Position numbers and translations under genes: made by a program
Shown here: positions 14,359 through 32,122 of the stretch, piece after piece
Layout: every line of letters begins with the position of its first letter
How positions within the stretch are numbered: the first letter of the stretch is position 1
Notes under the pieces: model-generated
The model's input: the letters and a program-made list of their open reading frames with translations, nothing else
Databases searched by the model: none
What the model was told of the DNA's origin: nothing
Assembly: GCA_945873335.1 (NCBI GenBank)
Contig: CAMCCH010000004.1
Span: forward strand, 1 to 38,468
DNA: 38,468 nucleotides
From: Bifidobacterium breve
GTDB taxonomy: Bacteria; Actinomycetota; Actinomycetes; Nanopelagicales; Nanopelagicaceae
Reading direction: 5' to 3'

Positions 14359-15539
14359 TTATCGTCACCATCTCTAGTCAATAGGCGGTTCCATGATCGA
14401 TGGTCCTTTGCAAGGCCAACACCTTCGCTGCCAACTATGGACATCTCGTAAATACTAAATATCTGTTCAGCCACAACTTCCCAGTCAAATAATTGTGCAT
14501 GCTCTTTTCCTGCAATAGCGAGTTCTGTACGTTTTTGATTGTTGCGTAGTAAATCAATTATCACCTTTGCTAAATCTGTTGGATTCTCTGACTCAAATAG
14601 TGCTCCAAATTCTCCGCCGCCCAATAGGGAATCAAATGCTGGAATATCACTTGCGACAACGGTTGCACCACCTGCGAGTGCTTCGGCCAGAATAATTCCA
14701 AAAGATTCACCGCCTGTATTTGGTGCCACATAAATAGCAACAGATGCCATGAAATCCGCTTTCTCTTCTTCTGAGATGCGTCCGAGAAATTCAAAACGTG
14801 GAAGTAATTGCGGATCAATGCTCTTTTTTATCTCTTCGCTATCTCCGGGCCCTGCTACAAAAACTCGAACATCGGGTGCAAAGCGTGCAATTATCGGTAG
14901 CGCTTCCAATAGAACTGCCAGGCCTTTACGGGGTTCTTCAAAGCGACCCATAAAACCAATCGTATTTCCTTGCCACCTAGCTTGCGGAGTTCCTTTTGCA
15001 TATCTCTTGGCATAAATACCGTTCGGAATTACAACTGCATCAGTTTCTAAATGCTCTGTCAAAGTTGAGCGCGCAGCCTCGCTCACTGCAATACGTGCAT
15101 TGAGTTTTTCAATAGCAGGTTCGAGAATGGGACCAATTGCAAAGATAATTTTTTGGCGCTTAGCTGCTGCATGGAAAGTTCCAACAAGTGGACCTTCTGC
15201 CGCCCAGCAAGCAAGTAGTGATAATGATGGGATAGCTGGCTCATGTAAATGCAATAGATCAAACTCGCCTTGCGTAATCCATTGACGAACACGAGCAAAA
15301 GCAATCGGACCAAAAAGAATGCGCGCAACTGCGCCATTGTAGGGAATTGCAATTGGCTTACCTGCACTTACAACATATTCAGGTAGGGCATCCTCATCAA
15401 TCGCCGGTGATAGAACTGACACCGTGTGACCGGATGCAATGAGAAATTCTGCCAAGTCTCGAATATGCGCTTGCACTCCCCCAGGTGTATCCCAAGAGTA
15501 TGGGCAGACAATTCCTATTTTGAGTTTTTTCGTCAGCAT
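14355..15539 (-). CDS. pimA: Phosphatidylinositol alpha-mannosyltransferase PimA
   Basis: A 394-aa GT4-type glycosyltransferase that transfers mannose from GDP-mannose to phosphatidylinositol, the first step of PIM synthesis at the inner membrane face. It opens KIGIVCPYSWDTPGGVQAHI, with the glycine-rich GGVQ loop, then IPYNGAVARILFGP, DLLHLHEPAIPSLS, NGIYAKRY, GFMGRFEEPRKG and the donor-binding APNTGGESFGIILAEALAGG (E-x7-E). These strongly match mycobacterial PimA. It overlaps the acyltransferase gene upstream by one base (TAATG) and the LemA-like gene downstream by four. An AGGGAA site precedes the ATG. Confidence 0.92.
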   Translation of the reverse strand: MLTKKLKIGIVCPYSWDTPGGVQAHIRDLAEFLIASGHTVSVLSPAIDEDALPEYVVSAGKPIAIPYNGAVARILFGPIAFARVRQWITQGEFDLLHLHEPAIPSLSLLACWAAEGPLVGTFHAAAKRQKIIFAIGPILEPAIEKLNARIAVSEAARSTLTEHLETDAVVIPNGIYAKRYAKGTPQARWQGNTIGFMGRFEEPRKGLAVLLEALPIIARFAPDVRVFVAGPGDSEEIKKSIDPQLLPRFEFLGRISEEEKADFMASVAIYVAPNTGGESFGIILAEALAGGATVVASDIPAFDSLLGGGEFGALFESENPTDLAKVIIDLLRNNQKRTELAIAGKEHAQLFDWEVVAEQIFSIYEMSIVGSEGVGLAKDHRSWNRLLTRDGDDK

Positions 15540-23720: not shown

Positions 23721-24323
23721 ATGATTGCATTTATCCCTGGCTTCTTAGCTGGCCTTTCCCTCATTATCGCTATCGGGGCACAGAATGCATTTGTAATCAA
23801 GCAAGGTCTTACAAAGGAACACGTATTCCTTACTGTCGCTATTTGCGCCATTTCAGATGCACTACTCATTGCATTGGGGGCCGCGGGACTTGGCAGTATC
23901 TTGCAATCTCAGCCAACACTTCTTGAGATTATCCGATGGTTTGGGGTTGCTTACCTAACATGGTTTGGAATCAAGAGCGTTCGTTCCGTTTTCCATAACG
24001 CAGTAATCGGAACTACAACTGGTGAATCGGCCAGTGCCAAAAAAGTTGCGACAACAGTCTTAGGATTTACATTCCTCAACCCACATGTCTACTTGGATAC
24101 TGTTATCTTGCTGGGAAGTATCTCTAATCAATTCAAGGAGGATCGCTGGTTTTTTAGCCTAGGAGCGATGCTTGCAAGTCTCGTCTGGTTTACATCAATT
24201 GGCTTCGGAGCAAAAGCTGCATCGCGATATATGTCAAAGCCGATATTCTGGAAAGTTCTTGATTCAATTATTGCATGTGTAATGTTTTCAATTGCTGGCT
24301 ATCTTGCTTTTGCAACTCTATGA
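23721..24323 (+). CDS. LysE/ArgO-type amino acid exporter
   Basis: A 200-aa integral membrane protein with about six hydrophobic segments. The family signature GLSLIIAIGAQNAFVIKQGL sits near residue 11, with FLNPHVYLDTVILLGS near 128, both typical of LysE and ArgO (YggA). These export basic amino acids (lysine, arginine) or toxic analogues such as canavanine. No LysG/ArgP-type regulator gene is adjacent. A dimethylarginine-hydrolase-like gene lies about 3.6 kb away, but a link is speculative. The gene ends against the NHL-propeller gene with a 6-base convergent overlap. Confidence 0.9.
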   Translation: MIAFIPGFLAGLSLIIAIGAQNAFVIKQGLTKEHVFLTVAICAISDALLIALGAAGLGSILQSQPTLLEIIRWFGVAYLTWFGIKSVRSVFHNAVIGTTTGESASAKKVATTVLGFTFLNPHVYLDTVILLGSISNQFKEDRWFFSLGAMLASLVWFTSIGFGAKAASRYMSKPIFWKVLDSIIACVMFSIAGYLAFATL

Positions 24324-25223
24324 AATGGTTACAGCTCGACCACCTAAATACCATTCAGTGAAATAAACCTCACCGCGGACTGAAACAGTTATGCCGTGAG
24401 GACTATTGAGCTTTCCTTCAAGAACATCGGGAGCAACTGAATCTGCGCCAGATATTTTGTTAGGCCAACCCTCTCGTGTATTCACATTCGACGTTGGAAG
24501 AATCGCTCGAACTTGATCATCTAAATCTATGGCAAGAATCGCCCCAAAGAGATCGGTGACAAGCAAGTCGCTCCCGCGCACAGCAAGAGACGAAGGACTT
24601 GTCATAATCGGGGCGCTAACTGAGCGAATGAAAGTCCCATCTTCTTTGAAATAGAGGACCCTCTTATTACTTCTATCTGCCACAGCAATTCGATTTACTG
24701 ACTCTCGCGTATCAACTGCAACACCGTGTGGACAATCAAATTTTGTACCACTTGTTGAACCGTCAAATGTTTCGATAGCGCCATTTGCTCTGACAACGTG
24801 GACCAAGCTCAGACCATAGCCATCACCAATCCAGATATCTCCACTAGCAGCTAGTGCGATAGAGGTCGGTCTCCACTTATCTTGTTCATCAGAGCTTCGC
24901 ACTGGTTGCTTGATTGTGCGCAAAATTTTTCCTTCTAGATTGATTTGAACAACTTGGCCCGGTATTTGTGCGCCAGGATCACAAATCCAAATAGTGTCAT
25001 CACTGGCCACTGCAATACCGTGTGAAACTGCTACTCCGACTTCAATTCGTACATGCTTCTTCGTAGCGGGATCTAAAAATATTAGTGCTGCGCCGCCGGG
25101 TGCTTCGAAAACAATACGACCATCACTGAGAACACCAATACCTGAGTGCATCCACCCTTGCTTGGAATCTCCATCAAAGAGTGTTTGCCAAATAACTGGT
25201 GAGTTCAGATTCTTCAATTCCAC
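24318..25223 (-). CDS. NHL-repeat / SMP-30-like six-bladed beta-propeller protein
   Basis: A 301-aa cytoplasmic protein (no signal peptide). It shows repeated propeller strands: GIGVLSDGRIVFEA, SHGIAVASDDTIWICD, PTSIALAASGDIWIGDG, CPHGVAVDTRESVNRIAVADRSNKRVLYF, SSLAVRGSDLLVTDLFG and SPHGITVSVRGEVYFTEW. This spacing is typical of NHL or SMP-30/gluconolactonase-type propellers, which may be lactonases, hydrolases or non-catalytic. Its ATG overlaps the end of the P450 gene by 10 bases on the same strand, so it is translated with the P450 operon and probably acts in the same pathway. No specific catalytic residues can be assigned. Confidence 0.78.
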   Translation of the reverse strand: MELKNLNSPVIWQTLFDGDSKQGWMHSGIGVLSDGRIVFEAPGGAALIFLDPATKKHVRIEVGVAVSHGIAVASDDTIWICDPGAQIPGQVVQINLEGKILRTIKQPVRSSDEQDKWRPTSIALAASGDIWIGDGYGLSLVHVVRANGAIETFDGSTSGTKFDCPHGVAVDTRESVNRIAVADRSNKRVLYFKEDGTFIRSVSAPIMTSPSSLAVRGSDLLVTDLFGAILAIDLDDQVRAILPTSNVNTREGWPNKISGADSVAPDVLEGKLNSPHGITVSVRGEVYFTEWYLGGRAVTIS

Positions 25224-26416
25224 GACACCATCAGTTCGCCTGCTTCATATGTTGCAACAGGATGCGCAAATGGTCCTGGTTCATTTTGTTCAGCATGTAC
25301 AAGATGCAGACTTGGAATGGCGTTGATAAGTTGCATGACACCTTCGCGGATTTCTACGCGTGCGACTTGTTGTCCAACGCATCCATGTATTCCGTGACCA
25401 AAACCAATATGGCCAAAAGCATCGCGAGATAAATCGAACTTGTCGGGATCGGGGAACTGACGCTCATCATGATTTGCCGCAACTGGAGAAACAGATACCG
25501 ATTGTCCAGCTTTGATATGAACATCACCCAGAGTTAGGTCCTCTGTTGCAGTTCGAGGAAATAGAGTGAGAAACATTGCACCAACGCGCATGAACTCTTC
25601 CATTCCACCAGCAATCAGCGTTGGATCGTCACGAAGCGCTTTAAGCTGTTCAGGATTATTGAGCAGGGCTGTCATGCATGTTGTAATCATGTATGCGACT
25701 GAATCTCGACCTGAGACCATCAAAGAAAGAGTGAGACCTTCAATTTCAGGAACCAATAGGTCGCTACGGAGTAGATCGCTAAGTACATCTTCTGCTAACT
25801 CATCTTTTTTCACCGCCAGAACGCGACGCAGGAATTCAACTTTCTCCTCCGTTGTTGAATCCCCCACAAACAATCGTGAATATTCTTGGCGAAATTGTTC
25901 AGGAATTCCTAGAACACGCATGTGACCAGCTGCAGATATGGGTTGAGAATAATGTTCGGTCACATCTACCGGTGTTGGCTGAGCCATCAAATGCTTGAGT
26001 TGCTTGGCAACTATTTCTTTCATGTCGCTTTCATAACCGCGAGCAGAGCGGACCGAATACCTATTCAAGATTGTTCTGCGAATTCTTGCGTGTTGTTCCC
26101 CATCTAAACCTAGAACGTTTCCAAGATCTAGTTCGCTATCTGAACTCAGTCCGTATTGTGCTTCAAGTGCCTCACCATGATGAGCTGGCATGCGCGCTGG
26201 TGTTTGACTAAATCGCTTATCTTCTAGAACCATCTTTGCTAGTTCATATCGGTTGATAATCAAGCCTTCATGACCATCAGAATATTCAAGTGGCGTTGCT
26301 GAACCTTCTTCGCGCCAGATTGCAAATGTTGGAGACGGACATGTTGGCGTTCCATCGTTGGGAATTCTGCGTACTTCATGCATGGGGCATTGCTCTTGCT
26401 TTGTAACTTCACTCAT
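25214..26416 (-). CDS. Cytochrome P450
   Basis: A 400-aa soluble bacterial P450. The haem-binding FGHGIHGCVG has its thiolate cysteine at about residue 346. EEFMR supplies the ExxR pair on helix K, and FDLSRDAFGHIGFG matches the lead-in. The I-helix oxygen-activation site reads VSGRDSVAY, so the usual threonine is serine, as in some functional P450s. The opening part carries MHEVRRIPNDGTP. The substrate is unknown. It lies between the ferredoxin reductase (4-base gap) and the NHL gene (10-base overlap), giving a complete class I electron-transfer operon. Confidence 0.95.
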   Translation of the reverse strand: MSEVTKQEQCPMHEVRRIPNDGTPTCPSPTFAIWREEGSATPLEYSDGHEGLIINRYELAKMVLEDKRFSQTPARMPAHHGEALEAQYGLSSDSELDLGNVLGLDGEQHARIRRTILNRYSVRSARGYESDMKEIVAKQLKHLMAQPTPVDVTEHYSQPISAAGHMRVLGIPEQFRQEYSRLFVGDSTTEEKVEFLRRVLAVKKDELAEDVLSDLLRSDLLVPEIEGLTLSLMVSGRDSVAYMITTCMTALLNNPEQLKALRDDPTLIAGGMEEFMRVGAMFLTLFPRTATEDLTLGDVHIKAGQSVSVSPVAANHDERQFPDPDKFDLSRDAFGHIGFGHGIHGCVGQQVARVEIREGVMQLINAIPSLHLVHAEQNEPGPFAHPVATYEAGELMVSWN

Positions 26417-26420
26417 CGAA

Positions 26421-27581
26421 CTATGCCTCCATCATTGATCTAGATTGCCGAAATTCTCGCGGCATATTCCAACCTACGATTCCAGTGGTGGTTCCGTTGC
26501 TTATGGTAGCCGCGACAAAGCGGTTATCGCTAGGACTTCCGTGCACAATTGTCAGAGGAACTCCGGCTTCCAAACTGCCGAGCATGAGAATCTTGTTTCC
26601 ATAGATTTCAGACCAGAAGAATGGGTGAGTGGTAGGACTCGATTCTCCAGTGACGATAAATTTACCGACTGCTAATCCTTGCTCTATTGCAGATGTTTGA
26701 TTCTCAAGGCGCATCGCCTTCTTTGTAATCGGATTATTCCACCGCGCTACATCGCCTGCCGCATAAATGTGCGGCGCCGCTACGCCATTTGAGTCACATA
26801 AAATCCCATTAGTTATATCTAATCCAGAATTAGCCAACCATTCGACATTTGGAATACAACCAATTGCAACGACTGCAATATCACCTGTAACTGATGATCC
26901 ATCTGATAGCTCGAAAGTTATTCCTGATTCATCTTCTCTCACTGCAATAATCTCAACTCCATACTTAGTAAGTACATCATGCTCTAAAAACAAGTCATTG
27001 ACTCGAGAGGCGAAATGTCCACCAGTAAGCGGTAACTGAGGCGCTGGCATCCGATCAATGACGGTTGCCTTGATTCCAAAATCACTGAGAGCGGATATAA
27101 CTTCGGAGCCAAGCACGCCTGCGCCAATGACAACGGCGCTTTTGACTTCTGTTAGAGCATCCCGCAATCCAAGTGAATCATCGAGTGTTCGTAATACGTG
27201 GACTCGATTCATATTTTCTGTGCTCGCAAGTCTGCGAACAGATGCTCCCGTTGCAATTATCAAATCTTCAAAAGGTAGCGTTCGAGTATTTGTCTTTACT
27301 TCTTTTGATGAAACATCTAGACCTATTGCAATCTCCCCCAGAGAAAACTCAAGAGCCAATTCTGCAAATTTCTCTGATGAATCAATTGCAGTTTGACTAC
27401 CTTGCCATTTTCCAGAAAGAACCTGCTTTGAAAGTGGTGGCCTGTTGTAGGGAAGATGTTTTTCAGCACCGATAAGAGTTATCTTTTTTGTGTACCCCTC
27501 AGCGCGCAGTGATTGAGCACATGTAAGACCTGCAAGCGAAGCACCAACAATAATAAGACCAGGTTCTTCGACCGACATCAT
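26421..27581 (-). CDS. FAD-dependent ferredoxin reductase (P450 partner type)
   Basis: A 386-aa flavoprotein of the putidaredoxin-reductase / BphA4 group. It has FAD-binding IIVGASLAGLTCAQSLR at the N-terminus, YNRPPLSKQVL, the ATGASVRRL strand, a second NAD-binding Rossmann motif VVIGAGVLGSEV, and YAAGDVARW with the FAD-contacting aspartate. It would pass electrons from NAD(P)H to the adjacent ferredoxin. The track start at 27617 overlaps the ferredoxin gene. The ATG-ATG at 27581, 2 bases after the ferredoxin stop, is preferred and gives the usual short N-terminus. Confidence 0.92.
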   Translation of the reverse strand: MMSVEEPGLIIVGASLAGLTCAQSLRAEGYTKKITLIGAEKHLPYNRPPLSKQVLSGKWQGSQTAIDSSEKFAELALEFSLGEIAIGLDVSSKEVKTNTRTLPFEDLIIATGASVRRLASTENMNRVHVLRTLDDSLGLRDALTEVKSAVVIGAGVLGSEVISALSDFGIKATVIDRMPAPQLPLTGGHFASRVNDLFLEHDVLTKYGVEIIAVREDESGITFELSDGSSVTGDIAVVAIGCIPNVEWLANSGLDITNGILCDSNGVAAPHIYAAGDVARWNNPITKKAMRLENQTSAIEQGLAVGKFIVTGESSPTTHPFFWSEIYGNKILMLGSLEAGVPLTIVHGSPSDNRFVAATISNGTTTGIVGWNMPREFRQSRSMMEA

Positions 27582-27583
27582 TT

Positions 27584-27775
27584 CTACTCTTCGAGCGCAA
27601 TCGCCTTTGCTGGACATAACGTTGCCGCCTTGCGCGCAAATGCAACATATTCATCACTAGGTGTATCAGTGAGTAAAACAACCAAACCATCATCATCTTG
27701 ATCGAAAATCGAACCTGCAACTAATGCACATTGGCCCGCACCAATACAGGCTTCGCGATCTACTCTGATCTTCAT
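27584..27775 (-). CDS. Small [3Fe-4S]-type ferredoxin
   Basis: A 63-aa ferredoxin with C10-x5-C16 (CIGAGQC) and C54-P near the C-terminus. This three-cysteine pattern is typical of [3Fe-4S] (or convertible) ferredoxins that serve bacterial P450s. Electrons would flow reductase to ferredoxin to P450. A strong GAGGAGAG ribosome binding site lies 5 bases before the ATG, and this is the first gene of the ferredoxin-reductase-P450-NHL operon. The upstream 85-105 bases are AT-rich and hold the divergent promoter region with the dimethylarginine-hydrolase-like gene. Confidence 0.93.
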   Translation of the reverse strand: MKIRVDREACIGAGQCALVAGSIFDQDDDGLVVLLTDTPSDEYVAFARKAATLCPAKAIALEE

Positions 27776-27868
27776 TTACTCTCCTCGAATCTAAAATCTT
27801 ATGAGGATATTAGTGTAAAACTCGCCTAAGGTCGCGAAAGAATTTCGCTATTTCTTGATTAGTTGGTA

Positions 27869-27874
27869 CATAAT
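27869..27874 (+). promoter_or_regulatory. Candidate -10 element for a leaderless start
   Basis: CATAAT ends exactly 6 bases before the ATG at 27881 (CACCCC between). No Shine-Dalgarno is present. It supports the ATG at 27881 over the TTG at 27863. Confidence 0.45.
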
Positions 27875-27880
27875 CACCCC

Positions 27881-28738
27881 ATGACTCAATGGGGAACACC
27901 AGATATGTATTCCAATCTCGCACGAGTAATGGTGCGCACACCTACGACAACGGGAAAATTTGTCGAAGATGGCCATTGGCGTATGCCAGATACTGTGGCA
28001 CTCCTTGAAGAGCACAAATCATTTACTCGATTACTGGAATCCCTTGGTTGCACAGTAGATGTTGCGGGTTCAATAGAAGGTCTCGTTGATTCCGTTTATA
28101 TGCACGATCCAATGATCATGACTCCACACGGTGCAATCCTTTTGAAAATGGCAAAGCCGGTGCGCTCCACCGAGCCAGGTTTCTTTCGAAAAGATTTAGA
28201 AAAGATTGGCGTTCCAATCCTTGGAGAACTAACTGCTCCCGCATATGCAGATGGTGGCGACAAAGTTTGGCTCGATGAGAAGACGCTACTCATTGGACAT
28301 AGCTACCGCACTAATACAGCAGGTATCGAACAAATTCGCGATCTCCTTGCACCTTTTGGCGTAGATGTTCTCTCCTTTGATTTACCGCACTATGAAGGAC
28401 CAGGGGCTGTTCTTCATTTGATGAGTGTTCTCTCCCCTATCGCTGGTGATAAAGCCGTTGTTTATGAACCACTTGCACCTGCGCGATTGCTTCAATATTT
28501 AGAATCACGCGGAATTACTTGGTTTACAGTGAGTGAGAAAGAGATGCTGACACAAGGCAGCAACATCTTGGCTGTTCGCCCCAACGTTGTTGTACTTGCC
28601 GCGGGTAATCCAGAGATTGAAAGTAAATTGAAGGCAGCGGGCGTTGAAGTACATCTCTTTGCCGGAAATAACGTTGCAGTCAAAGGCGATGGCGGTCCGA
28701 CATGTATGACTGCGCCATTGCTACGGGTTCCAAACTAA
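27881..28738 (+). CDS. Dimethylarginine dimethylaminohydrolase-like (amidinotransferase superfamily)
   Basis: A 285-aa guanidino-modifying enzyme of the pentein fold. Visible features are VYMHDPMIMTPHG, the acidic ADGGDKVWLDEKTLLIGHSYRTN, the catalytic-histidine region GAVLHLMSVLSPI, and the C-terminal nucleophile in GDGGPTCMTAPLLR (C about residue 275). The layout fits dimethylarginine hydrolases, which yield citrulline, although arginine deiminase-like or amidinotransferase activity cannot be excluded. The ORF track uses a TTG at 27863; the ATG at 27881 with CATAAT 6 bases upstream is preferred. It converges with the secreted-protein gene, overlapping by 4 bases (CTAA encodes both stops). 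Confidence 0.8.
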   Translation: MTQWGTPDMYSNLARVMVRTPTTTGKFVEDGHWRMPDTVALLEEHKSFTRLLESLGCTVDVAGSIEGLVDSVYMHDPMIMTPHGAILLKMAKPVRSTEPGFFRKDLEKIGVPILGELTAPAYADGGDKVWLDEKTLLIGHSYRTNTAGIEQIRDLLAPFGVDVLSFDLPHYEGPGAVLHLMSVLSPIAGDKAVVYEPLAPARLLQYLESRGITWFTVSEKEMLTQGSNILAVRPNVVVLAAGNPEIESKLKAAGVEVHLFAGNNVAVKGDGGPTCMTAPLLRVPN

Positions 28739-30408
28739 ACTTTCTTGTATCCCTTAGGACATACTGGTTTAGCGCCAACAATCTTTTGAGTTACTGAACC
28801 CTTTTTGCACTTGATGGCAATACTCTTTGGCGCAATCGCTTTAGTAGCAGCTTTTGCTTCCCCGGCTGGTTTTTCAGCAGCTGGTTCAGTAGGTGCTTTT
28901 ACTGCTACTTGAGTGAGCTTTATTCGAATAGTTGGCACCGAGAAAGTGAAGTTCTTTGCCGATAGTTTCATCCAACCATTCTTTTCACTGAGCAAAGTTG
29001 TTGCAACATTTTGGACTGAGCCATCACCAGAGGTGATCGAAATCGTTGCACTCACTGGAGCCTTAGAAAAACCATAAAGGCAGCGCGCTGTATCTGATTT
29101 CATATTCAATTCATACGACCCCTTGAATTCAGCATTATCAAAACCGTTATGCGGACCAGCAACTTTGTAAGTCATAAATCCATCAACGAGTTCAGGCGGA
29201 CTTGGATCATAGATACTTGCATTGGTTGAAATTATTCCTATCAAGCCATTTTTCGCATCGAAGCATGCTGGCCAACGAGCAACGCGCCAATTACCTGGAG
29301 TCATACCTGTGATATCCCATCTCGAATTCTCAACAGGTGCCGCTTTCAAGTATTTTGCGAGAGCATCGACATAACCCACATTGAAGTTTGGATCCTCGGG
29401 ATTTTGCGTGTAGAGATACTGCCAATTCAACCGGTCACCTTGAGGTCGCTCGACGGGACAATCACGACCTCCGCAATTCATAAAAGCGGCGCTCAGAGCC
29501 TTATCTGCCGCAATCTCAGAAGTCTTTATTTCTGCGTAGCTAATGGGGACTTGGATTGAATTTCCTTCGATGCGTATTGAATTGATTTCTGAGGTCAGGG
29601 GTTCAACAGAAACGGAGGCATCCCCGACGCGTCCAAAGAGCCAACCAGTAATGCGATTATCCATCTGCATCGTCAAGCCGATTTTTTGGTTCTTGGTGAA
29701 CTCACTGCGGATTGCACATTTACCTAGTTCAATCCACGCACAATCAAATCCCCGCTCAAAGGGGCTTCCATCTGTAGAGAAGGATTCAAAGAAATCATCT
29801 CCTGAAGGCAAAGTGCGAACACGGAAAGGTACATAGTTGCCGGATACATATTTCACTGGAATTACAGATGCATTGAAGGAAAAGACATATGCAACTCCTG
29901 GGTCACGTGTTGCAGGGTTGTAATCAATGTTGTAGCGAATAGAGATTTGTACCCCGTATAAGTTTCCGGCATCATCTTTCCACACACTTATTGCGCCACC
30001 TTGTGGCGTTTGAGCTTTTGCGTTCGCTGCGATTTTAGGCATATCTATTTCGTGATCAAATATCGCTTTTTTTAGATTTCCAGATGAATCCCCTAAATCA
30101 AATTCCTTGATGCACATATCACTCGGCGTTGAATTTGCCGTGCATGGTGGAACAATAAAATTGAGCATCAGCGCTCGTAGAGATTTGCAACGAGGGTCAT
30201 CGACAGCAGAACAATAAAGTTGCTTCCCGCTGACATCGTCACGGCCCCATATTTGTGAATAATTCAATTGGCCAGATTCGATATCCCGAAATACAAAGCT
30301 AGACATGCCCGCTACTGGTTGATTCATCTGCCATGCGGCTTGCGCAGGGGTGGCAATCGGAAGAACTAGTGCCGCAATAGCTAAGGCAACAGATATAAGT
30401 TTCTTCAT
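28735..30408 (-). CDS. Secreted 12-cysteine protein A with C-terminal two-cysteine module
   Basis: A 557-aa protein that I do not recognise by family. It has a clear signal peptide (MKKLISVALAIAALVLPIATPAQA, probable cleavage after AQA). The mature part holds 12 cysteines, mostly paired (for example YCSAVDDPRC, PPCTANSTPSDMC, DCAWIELGKC, NCGGRDC). A Pro/Ala/Lys-rich linker (about 515-530) leads to the end module IKCKKG...GAKPVCPKGYKKV. It is a paralogue of the adjacent gene. The ATG at 30408 (MKKL) with GGAGAGG 8 bases upstream is preferred over 30444. It is the third gene of an esterase-B-A run. A cell-surface role is inferred. Confidence 0.8.
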   Translation of the reverse strand: MKKLISVALAIAALVLPIATPAQAAWQMNQPVAGMSSFVFRDIESGQLNYSQIWGRDDVSGKQLYCSAVDDPRCKSLRALMLNFIVPPCTANSTPSDMCIKEFDLGDSSGNLKKAIFDHEIDMPKIAANAKAQTPQGGAISVWKDDAGNLYGVQISIRYNIDYNPATRDPGVAYVFSFNASVIPVKYVSGNYVPFRVRTLPSGDDFFESFSTDGSPFERGFDCAWIELGKCAIRSEFTKNQKIGLTMQMDNRITGWLFGRVGDASVSVEPLTSEINSIRIEGNSIQVPISYAEIKTSEIAADKALSAAFMNCGGRDCPVERPQGDRLNWQYLYTQNPEDPNFNVGYVDALAKYLKAAPVENSRWDITGMTPGNWRVARWPACFDAKNGLIGIISTNASIYDPSPPELVDGFMTYKVAGPHNGFDNAEFKGSYELNMKSDTARCLYGFSKAPVSATISITSGDGSVQNVATTLLSEKNGWMKLSAKNFTFSVPTIRIKLTQVAVKAPTEPAAEKPAGEAKAATKAIAPKSIAIKCKKGSVTQKIVGAKPVCPKGYKKV

Positions 30409-30481
30409 TTCAAAGGCCTCTCCGCCAGCAACACCGTAAGGCAACTATTCACAGACTTAGTCACATTGTCGAGTGAACACG

Positions 30482-32122
30482 CTACTTCTTCGTGTACCCC
30501 TTTGGGCACTTTGGTGTTACCCCTTTGACCTTCACAGTTGTTTTACCTTTCGTGCAAGATATTGTCTTAGATGCAGCTTTGATAGACGAATTAGAGAAGG
30601 CGAACTCAATATTTGGAGTCGAATAACTGAACTTCTTCGCAGCAAAATTTACCCAACCATTTTCTTCCAAGATAGCTGCTTCTGAATAATTCAATCTCTC
30701 CCCTGCCTTTGAAAATGCTGACGCAGTAACGCTGCTAGGGGTCACATTTGATTTCAAAAGACATCGCAAGATATCCGCTCGCATAGCCACTTGATAGTCA
30801 ACTTTATTGATCTGTGATTGCGCATTCTTGAGTGCGCCTGAAACTTTTGAGACCAATTTCTGATTTTGAATCTCTGGAGGGTTCATTTGATACAGGCTCG
30901 CATTTGTAGAGACTACGCCTGCAAGATTTTTGGACTTAGAAACACAGGGTGACCATGAAATTCCTTGACGCCATTTTGATTCAGGCATCGAGGTCACTTG
31001 CCATTGGCTATCGACACCTTGAATATCGGTAAGCCCGTTAGAAACGACATCTGCCAAACCGATGTTGAACTCCGCATCTTTGAGGTTATCAGTGAGAATT
31101 CCCTCCCAGATTACATTCTCATACTGTTCATATGCTTGAGGGCATACCACGACTTCATCACCACAACGATTGTATGCCGCTTTTAATTCTCTGACTTTAT
31201 TGATATCCAAAACATTATTAATTGCATAAACAGGTGAAGATACTGATGCTCTTCCACCAATTACTAAAAGATTAGCGGATGCCGAAATTTTCTTCTCTTG
31301 AATTTTCAAATCTAAAATTTGTGAGGAAAGCCAACCCTGTAATTTGTTATCCATCTGCATCGATATTGATACATTTGTATCATCAAGAAAATGGCCTTGA
31401 GTCACGCACAATCCTTTTTCGCTCCAATGACAATCACTATCATCGTCTAGTTTCCCTGATGACGGATTTACACCCAAGAGATCCGAATCACCATCGGTGA
31501 CGATGAAATCAAGTGGAGCAAATTTTCCCGATTTGTATTTCACAGGATGGATGGCAATTTTGAAATCCACCAAATTAGCCAGATTGACTTTATTAGTCTC
31601 TTTATTTTTTGTGACTACGTAAGTGAGCGAAACTTCAGTGGCGACCTCAGATGCAGGGTCTTTAGACTTGCCCGGTGCAAACTTCCATATTGAAATTCCT
31701 CCCCCAACCCCAATCTTCGCGGCTGTGTTAGCGGCAATTCTTGGTGTGGGAACTTCGCGAAGAAAAGTCGCTGGAATCATCTTTCCATCGCGGCCTGTCA
31801 TCTCTACACCACGAATACAGAAATCTGAACTCGTCGATTTCGCAGAACAGTGTGGAAGAATTATTTGAACTCGAAACTCATCAAGACTAGAACAACGAGA
31901 ATCATTCAGCGCTTTACAGATTCGCTGCTTTCCATCACTAGTCGTTCCACTAATTATTGAGCTACGCACCTTACCGTGCTCGAGTATTTGGAAAACTATG
32001 TTTGATTTCGATGTATCAAGTTCGGGAACAGTAATCATTGTGTGAGCGGCTGCCGGATTCGAAGTTGAAACCGTGGAGACCAGAAATACGAATACAAAAA
32101 GTATTCTTTTGAAATCGATCAC
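30482..32122 (-). CDS. Secreted 12-cysteine protein B with C-terminal two-cysteine module
   Basis: A 546-aa paralogue of the downstream protein A. It has an N-terminal signal peptide (hydrophobic FVFVFLVSTVS, then NPAAA). All 12 cysteines fall at matching positions (RICKALNDSRC, PHCSAKSTSSDFC, DCHWSEKGLC, RCGDEVVVC, SPC, RCL, SCTKG, KCPKG). Shared blocks include MQMDN-[KR], the IISTNASIY/VVSTNASLY stretch, and a final CPKGY-[TK]-K. It lacks the Ala/Pro linker seen in A. The start is GTG overlapping the esterase stop (GTGA), so expression is coupled. The function is unknown. The 73 bases before gene A contain no clear promoter. Confidence 0.8.
   Translation of the reverse strand: MIDFKRILFVFVFLVSTVSTSNPAAAHTMITVPELDTSKSNIVFQILEHGKVRSSIISGTTSDGKQRICKALNDSRCSSLDEFRVQIILPHCSAKSTSSDFCIRGVEMTGRDGKMIPATFLREVPTPRIAANTAAKIGVGGGISIWKFAPGKSKDPASEVATEVSLTYVVTKNKETNKVNLANLVDFKIAIHPVKYKSGKFAPLDFIVTDGDSDLLGVNPSSGKLDDDSDCHWSEKGLCVTQGHFLDDTNVSISMQMDNKLQGWLSSQILDLKIQEKKISASANLLVIGGRASVSSPVYAINNVLDINKVRELKAAYNRCGDEVVVCPQAYEQYENVIWEGILTDNLKDAEFNIGLADVVSNGLTDIQGVDSQWQVTSMPESKWRQGISWSPCVSKSKNLAGVVSTNASLYQMNPPEIQNQKLVSKVSGALKNAQSQINKVDYQVAMRADILRCLLKSNVTPSSVTASAFSKAGERLNYSEAAILEENGWVNFAAKKFSYSTPNIEFAFSNSSIKAASKTISCTKGKTTVKVKGVTPKCPKGYTKK

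Follow-up and report, generated by a model that had tools for sequence, protein, structure and literature searches.

The two neighbouring genes described here, A and B, belong to a multigene family that has not been described before, and they probably encode disulfide-stabilised, rapidly diversifying surface proteins that are attached non-covalently and possibly bind glycans. Homology, export signals, paired cysteines, a modular tail, tandem arrays and allele turnover are seen in the data; the bonds, the mode of attachment, the ligand and the role of A and B are what we infer. On this reading, both proteins would be exported by Sec to the cell surface and, outside the cytoplasm, would form the intrachain disulfides C223-C231, C382-C443 and C534-C550 (numbering of A), two further ones within the group C66/74/89/99, and an additional C312-C317 bond in the branch of A and B. 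The lysine-rich tail with two cysteines would fold as a small hairpin and keep the protein at the envelope, with no covalent bond made by a sortase. A beta-sandwich at the conserved C-terminal end, possibly a jelly roll that binds carbohydrate, would be the constant part, while the divergent N-terminal part would be displayed and would vary between strains through recombination and gene turnover. The role would likely be surface binding or masking: the proteins would bind glycans, or help the cell to evade phages or grazers.

The genes lie head to tail on the minus strand of the window, the whole stretch of 38,468 nucleotides that was analysed (G+C 46%), in a genome of 1.30 Mb that is 84% complete in 101 contigs. 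The size and G+C of this genome, together with the distribution of the protein family at family rank, suggest that it belongs to the Nanopelagicales (acI, such as Planktophila). Gene A (28735..30408, minus strand) encodes 557 aa with 12 cysteines and is convergent with an arginine-deiminase-like gene; its mechanical open reading frame opens at a TTG at 30444, and we took the ATG at 30408, where a Sec signal peptide begins, as the start. Gene B (30482..32122, minus strand) encodes 546 aa, also with 12 cysteines, and its GTG start at 32122 overlaps the stop of the upstream alpha/beta-hydrolase gene. These positions and lengths agree with those of an earlier sequence-only reading of this DNA, and so do the export signals that it proposed: judged by sequence and hydropathy, both N-termini read as Sec signal peptides, spanning residues 1-24 in A (30337..30408, minus strand; cleavage PAQA/AW) and about 1-26 in B (32045..32122, minus strand; PAAA/HT). 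There is no lipobox in either, the signal peptides ending in AQA and AAA with no cysteine at +1, and so the proteins do not class as lipoproteins; nor do they class as sortase substrates, LPxTG being absent from both, and hydropathy reveals no second hydrophobic segment in mature A or B. The same reading had the two proteins sharing little identity over long stretches. The identity is indeed modest, 30%, but it extends over the whole length (568 columns; BLASTP E 4e-90), which makes A and B clear homologues, beyond a mere matching of cysteines. A recent duplication is ruled out by this level of identity and by B having the longest branch on the family tree. The two sequence blocks that had been singled out as conserved fared differently: STNAS.Y recurs throughout the family, in the form [ST]TNA..Y, but MQMDN[KR] is limited to A, B and the close orthologues of A; at its position the family consensus differs, and only the downstream TGW[LF].GR is widely kept.

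The claim that every cysteine of one protein has a counterpart in the other stands in full. All 12 cysteines of A (66, 74, 89, 99, 223, 231, 312, 317, 382, 443, 534 and 550) align with cysteines in B, and the proposed layout of four close pairs, two singles and a final pair is exact; a crude binomial estimate puts the probability of 12/12 matches arising by chance at 30% identity at about 5e-7. We followed the pairs over 86 full-length family members, with positions numbered as in A and changes read on the family tree. C382/C443 is present in all 86 members, and C66/C74 and C89/C99 in 85. For C534/C550, 84 members have both cysteines and two have neither; for C223/C231, both are present in 80, neither in five and a single one in one, with four changes on the tree, implying that the pair has been lost jointly more than once. 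C312 and C317 occur together in seven members, confined to the branch holding A and B, and an extra pair near 167 and 172 is common to five members of a single branch. Such paired keeping, loss and gain is the behaviour expected of disulfide partners, and the family thus joins an export signal to cysteines that are conserved, gained and lost in pairs, as extracytoplasmic disulfide proteins do. The earlier suggestion of several disulfides formed outside the cytoplasm is supported by this pattern across the 86 members, and it is from sequence that we infer the bonds themselves. C66, C74, C89 and C99 are almost invariant, and so the partners within that group are not separable. A full-length AlphaFold2 model of A, built from four sequences, was poor (pLDDT 44) and usable for the tail hairpin only.

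From the N terminus onwards, the proteins consist of a signal peptide, a divergent region, a conserved C-terminal domain of 125 aa, a linker and the lysine-rich two-cysteine tail. In A, the divergent N-terminal and central region covers residues 25-360 (29329..30336, minus strand) and holds C66, C74, C89, C99, C223, C231, C312 and C317; the conserved domain, with C382/C443, covers residues about 361-505 (28894..29328, minus strand), and the low-complexity linker, 61-65% identical to that of the orthologues, residues 506-531 (28816..28893, minus strand). The corresponding domain of B, placed by alignment, comprises residues 371-516 (30575..31012, minus strand). The structural model of the domain is mostly beta (pLDDT 70, pTM 0.66) and supports a beta-sandwich fold; the few invariant polar residues of the family, T395, N396, R442 and S490, sit here. 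The domain bears a weak resemblance to PP2 (PF14299), the model of plant phloem protein 2 and the Nictaba lectins, which matches it in 30 of 52 members (best E 1.3e-4); in the sampled genomes, this domain accounts for most matches to the PP2 model, which cover about positions 58-130 of its 148. Searched by itself, the domain also matches ANAPC10 weakly (E 0.078), and the weak top of the Foldseek list includes jelly-roll sandwiches, APC10/DOC1, the carbohydrate-binding modules CBM86, CBM4 and CBM32, and a hyaluronan-binding module. One could go further and take the domain for a true PP2/Nictaba-like or galactose-binding-like module, making A and B cell-surface lectins that would bind polysaccharides for attachment or for gathering nutrients. 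We regard this as a tentative possibility: the PP2 match is confined to the model's second half, and the gathering cut-off (25 bits) is reached in none of 61 genomes, the best score being 23.8 bits. The family consensus does no better (E 7e-4, with a reversed control at E 0.028 to an unrelated family), nothing that Foldseek found for the domain model in the PDB and among viral models reached E <= 1e-3 (most TM-scores were 0.2-0.36), and A, B, the family profile and the domain, used as queries, brought up no credible PDB sequence. The domain also differs from PP2 in being bacterial and exported and in having the C382/C443 pair. The lectin proposal specifies our reading of A and B as attached, diversifying surface proteins and does not exclude it; a carbohydrate-binding role of the modelled domain is plausible.

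The tail occupies residues 532-557 in A (IKCKKGSVTQKIVGAKPVCPKGYKKV; 28738..28815, minus strand) and 521-546 in B (30485..30562, minus strand), with matches to our 35-position tail profile, A4, at E 3.8e-11 and 9.9e-13, respectively. The net charge of these last 26 residues is about +8, and the tail of A is predicted to form a hairpin (pLDDT about 81). The window's genome has 14 tail matches at E <= 1e-3 on 11 genes (one gene, on contig C46, carries four), plus one weak match; several complete relatives have 16-23 matches. Within a sample of the class, the tail is confined to the bacterial family in which the full-length members occur (5 of 114 genera); in a sample of the phylum, it turned up outside the class once in each of two genomes from a single other genus. 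In the window's genome it is found on, among others, a trypsin-like protease and an fn3 protein, and in the genome G072 it ends an exported protein of 2256 aa with Listeria-Bacteroides (InlB) repeats and TIG domains (L084:1090-7857). In three proteins, three or four tails stand in tandem between P/Q-rich spacers: L012:3-1262 (the C46 gene), L085:11797-14082 and L090:1890-4127. No Pfam or NCBIfam model for the tail was found among the tailed proteins scanned. Being shared by unrelated exported proteins and sometimes repeated, the tail is best read, from its sequence context, as an attachment or binding module, and the tandem copies fit such a module better than a cleaved signal. The non-covalent wall-binding modules of Gram-positive bacteria, such as the GW, LysM and CWB2 types, are similarly short and C-terminal, sit on unrelated exported proteins and in some cases occur in tandem, but the tail has about 26 aa, two cysteines and many lysines. 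The sorting tags LPXTG and PEP-CTERM are likewise shared at the C termini of many exported proteins; unlike them, the tail lacks LPxTG and a hydrophobic segment before its positive end, and it occurs in tandem repeats. The tail offers a simple sequence mark for finding the surface proteome of these bacteria. Exported proteins ending in it are also encoded on IMG/VR contigs (L073, L075, L076, L081 and L082, and also L074 and L077-L080); by eye, these are trypsin-like proteases and an exported protein of 562 aa whose family we did not recognise. Full-length members of the family were not found in IMG/VR, where the tail occurs alone, on other proteins.

That the family might be undescribed and restricted to a lineage had been suggested from the sequence, and our searches bear this out. 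A and B have no match above the curated cut-offs in Pfam and NCBIfam and none in PHROGs or among PDB sequences (Pfam, PHROGs and the PDB were also queried with relatives or the family profile), and we found no earlier description in the open-access literature; among the genomes sampled, full-length members occur in one bacterial family only. The tandem pair, on the other hand, turned out to be a small part of something much larger and more modular. Full-length members in the window's genome number at least six: besides A and B there are three on contig C17 and one on C20. Contig C46 has a partial member, and several other proteins resemble the family in the C-terminal domain or the tail alone. 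Copies per genome range from several to perhaps twenty or more; these numbers are rough, since up to 26 first-look candidates were listed per genome and only seven scored. Tandem arrays reach about seven to eight family or tail genes (L086, L088 and L089). In a sample of the order, the family was detected in 50 of 201 genomes, all within one family of streamlined (1.2-2 Mb), probably freshwater actinobacteria, and in a sample of the genus, 17 of 61 genomes gave a match; three quarters of the sampled order genomes do without the family, and so this way of life does not depend on it. A study of KEGG-annotated proteins described low functional redundancy in the secreted proteomes of small-genome freshwater bacteria (PMC11039613). 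A family without annotation would be invisible to such a measure, and several to perhaps more than 20 copies in a genome of 1.3-2 Mb point to a variable surface in some of these bacteria.

The many copies, the cross-bracing by cysteines, the tandem arrays and the presence of the tail on the 562-aa exported protein, which to the eye resembles an S-layer protein, would also suit a structural coat, an S-layer-like or fibrous outer layer with the paralogues as alternative subunits. We think this rather unlikely, however, as the family is missing from most relatives, its members are very divergent (about 30% identity) and no S-layer domain is matched. Still less probable are secreted hydrolases or proteases with unrecognised catalytic domains: trypsin-like proteases do carry the same tail, but what invariant polar residues there are sit in the C-terminal domain, no catalytic family is matched, and conservation is lowest in the N-terminal region, the place to expect a separate catalytic site.

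Many family and tail genes appear, from their upstream sequences, to share one regulatory switch. Of 82 upstream regions, 17 contain the heptamer GCATAAA (a block-of-two shuffle gave 1.65 on average), and in 15 of these it lies 53 to 81 bases before the start; it is followed by CGG, mostly exactly 15 bases on (spacer 15-16); spacers of 16-18 gave background matches only. A strict motif search of ten genomes gave 22 sites, 14 of them directly upstream of family or tail genes and the other eight preceding no credible gene. As the pattern was derived from some of the target genes, the agreement is in part circular; several confirmed sites precede genes outside the derivation set, e.g. L092, L094, L095 and L099. 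Examples of GCATAAA-N15/16-CGG before family or tail genes are L011:3502 (minus strand), L083:13474 (plus strand), L086:13648 (minus strand) and, in the window's genome, G000:C17:14518, upstream of a paralogue (gene at 14581). Neither A nor B has GCATAAA-N15-CGG in the roughly 100 bases before it; in G072, A's relative L051 comes second in a two-gene unit, and the first gene of that unit has the motif. An ECF sigma-type gene lies near the arrays in G072 and G061 (Pfam Sigma70_r2 and r4) and, judged by sequence, on contig C58 of the window's genome; next come a gene for a single-pass membrane protein of anti-sigma shape and then a tail gene preceded by the motif or something very like it. At E < 1e-20, the membrane gene was detected in 12 of 61 genus genomes, each of which is one of the 15 that have the family at the same threshold (Fisher p about 3e-10, with kinship of the genomes ignored). 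A sigma gene, a single-pass membrane gene and a common target motif are what ECF sigma/transmembrane anti-sigma regulons have, and the genes with GCATAAA-N15-CGG form a candidate ECF-sigma regulon; it differs from the known ones in that the membrane partner has no Pfam match, the targets are an undescribed surface family, and A and B are without the motif. The motif makes the control of the surface proteins directly testable.

Turnover is visible at the locus itself. Beside the deiminase-like gene, the same locus holds A only in L016 and L017, B only in L111 (genome G863) and both in the window; on the other flank, L016, L017 and the window have the hydrolase gene, and L111 has a different one. 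The A orthologues in L016 and L017 are 86-87% identical to A, in neighbourhoods near-identical to that of the window, and the B orthologue in L111 is 56% identical to B, with 12/12 cysteines. Between A and L016, dS is 1.83 and dN 0.124 over residues 25-230, against 0.31 and 0.006 in the C-terminal domain, where dS is close to that of the neighbouring gene (0.32), and the N-terminal half thus looks recombinant. dN/dS stays below 0.12 over the whole A gene and its mature folded regions, so that the positive selection which an arms-race antigen should show is not in evidence; the signal peptide and the linker, both short, gave 0.3-0.5 in one comparison. Taken together with the tail and the motif, A and B could, more speculatively, be part of an undescribed surface-display system of streamlined actinobacteria, in which a sortase-free tail would anchor the repertoire, an ECF sigma/anti-sigma pair would switch many of its genes via GCATAAA-N15-CGG, and turnover and recombination would alter what is displayed. 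As a separate observation, a gene set next to A and B (window positions 24318-28738) is kept beside them in relatives; it contains the arginine-deiminase-like gene and, by eye, also a flavoprotein reductase, a cytochrome P450 and an SMP-30-like gene.
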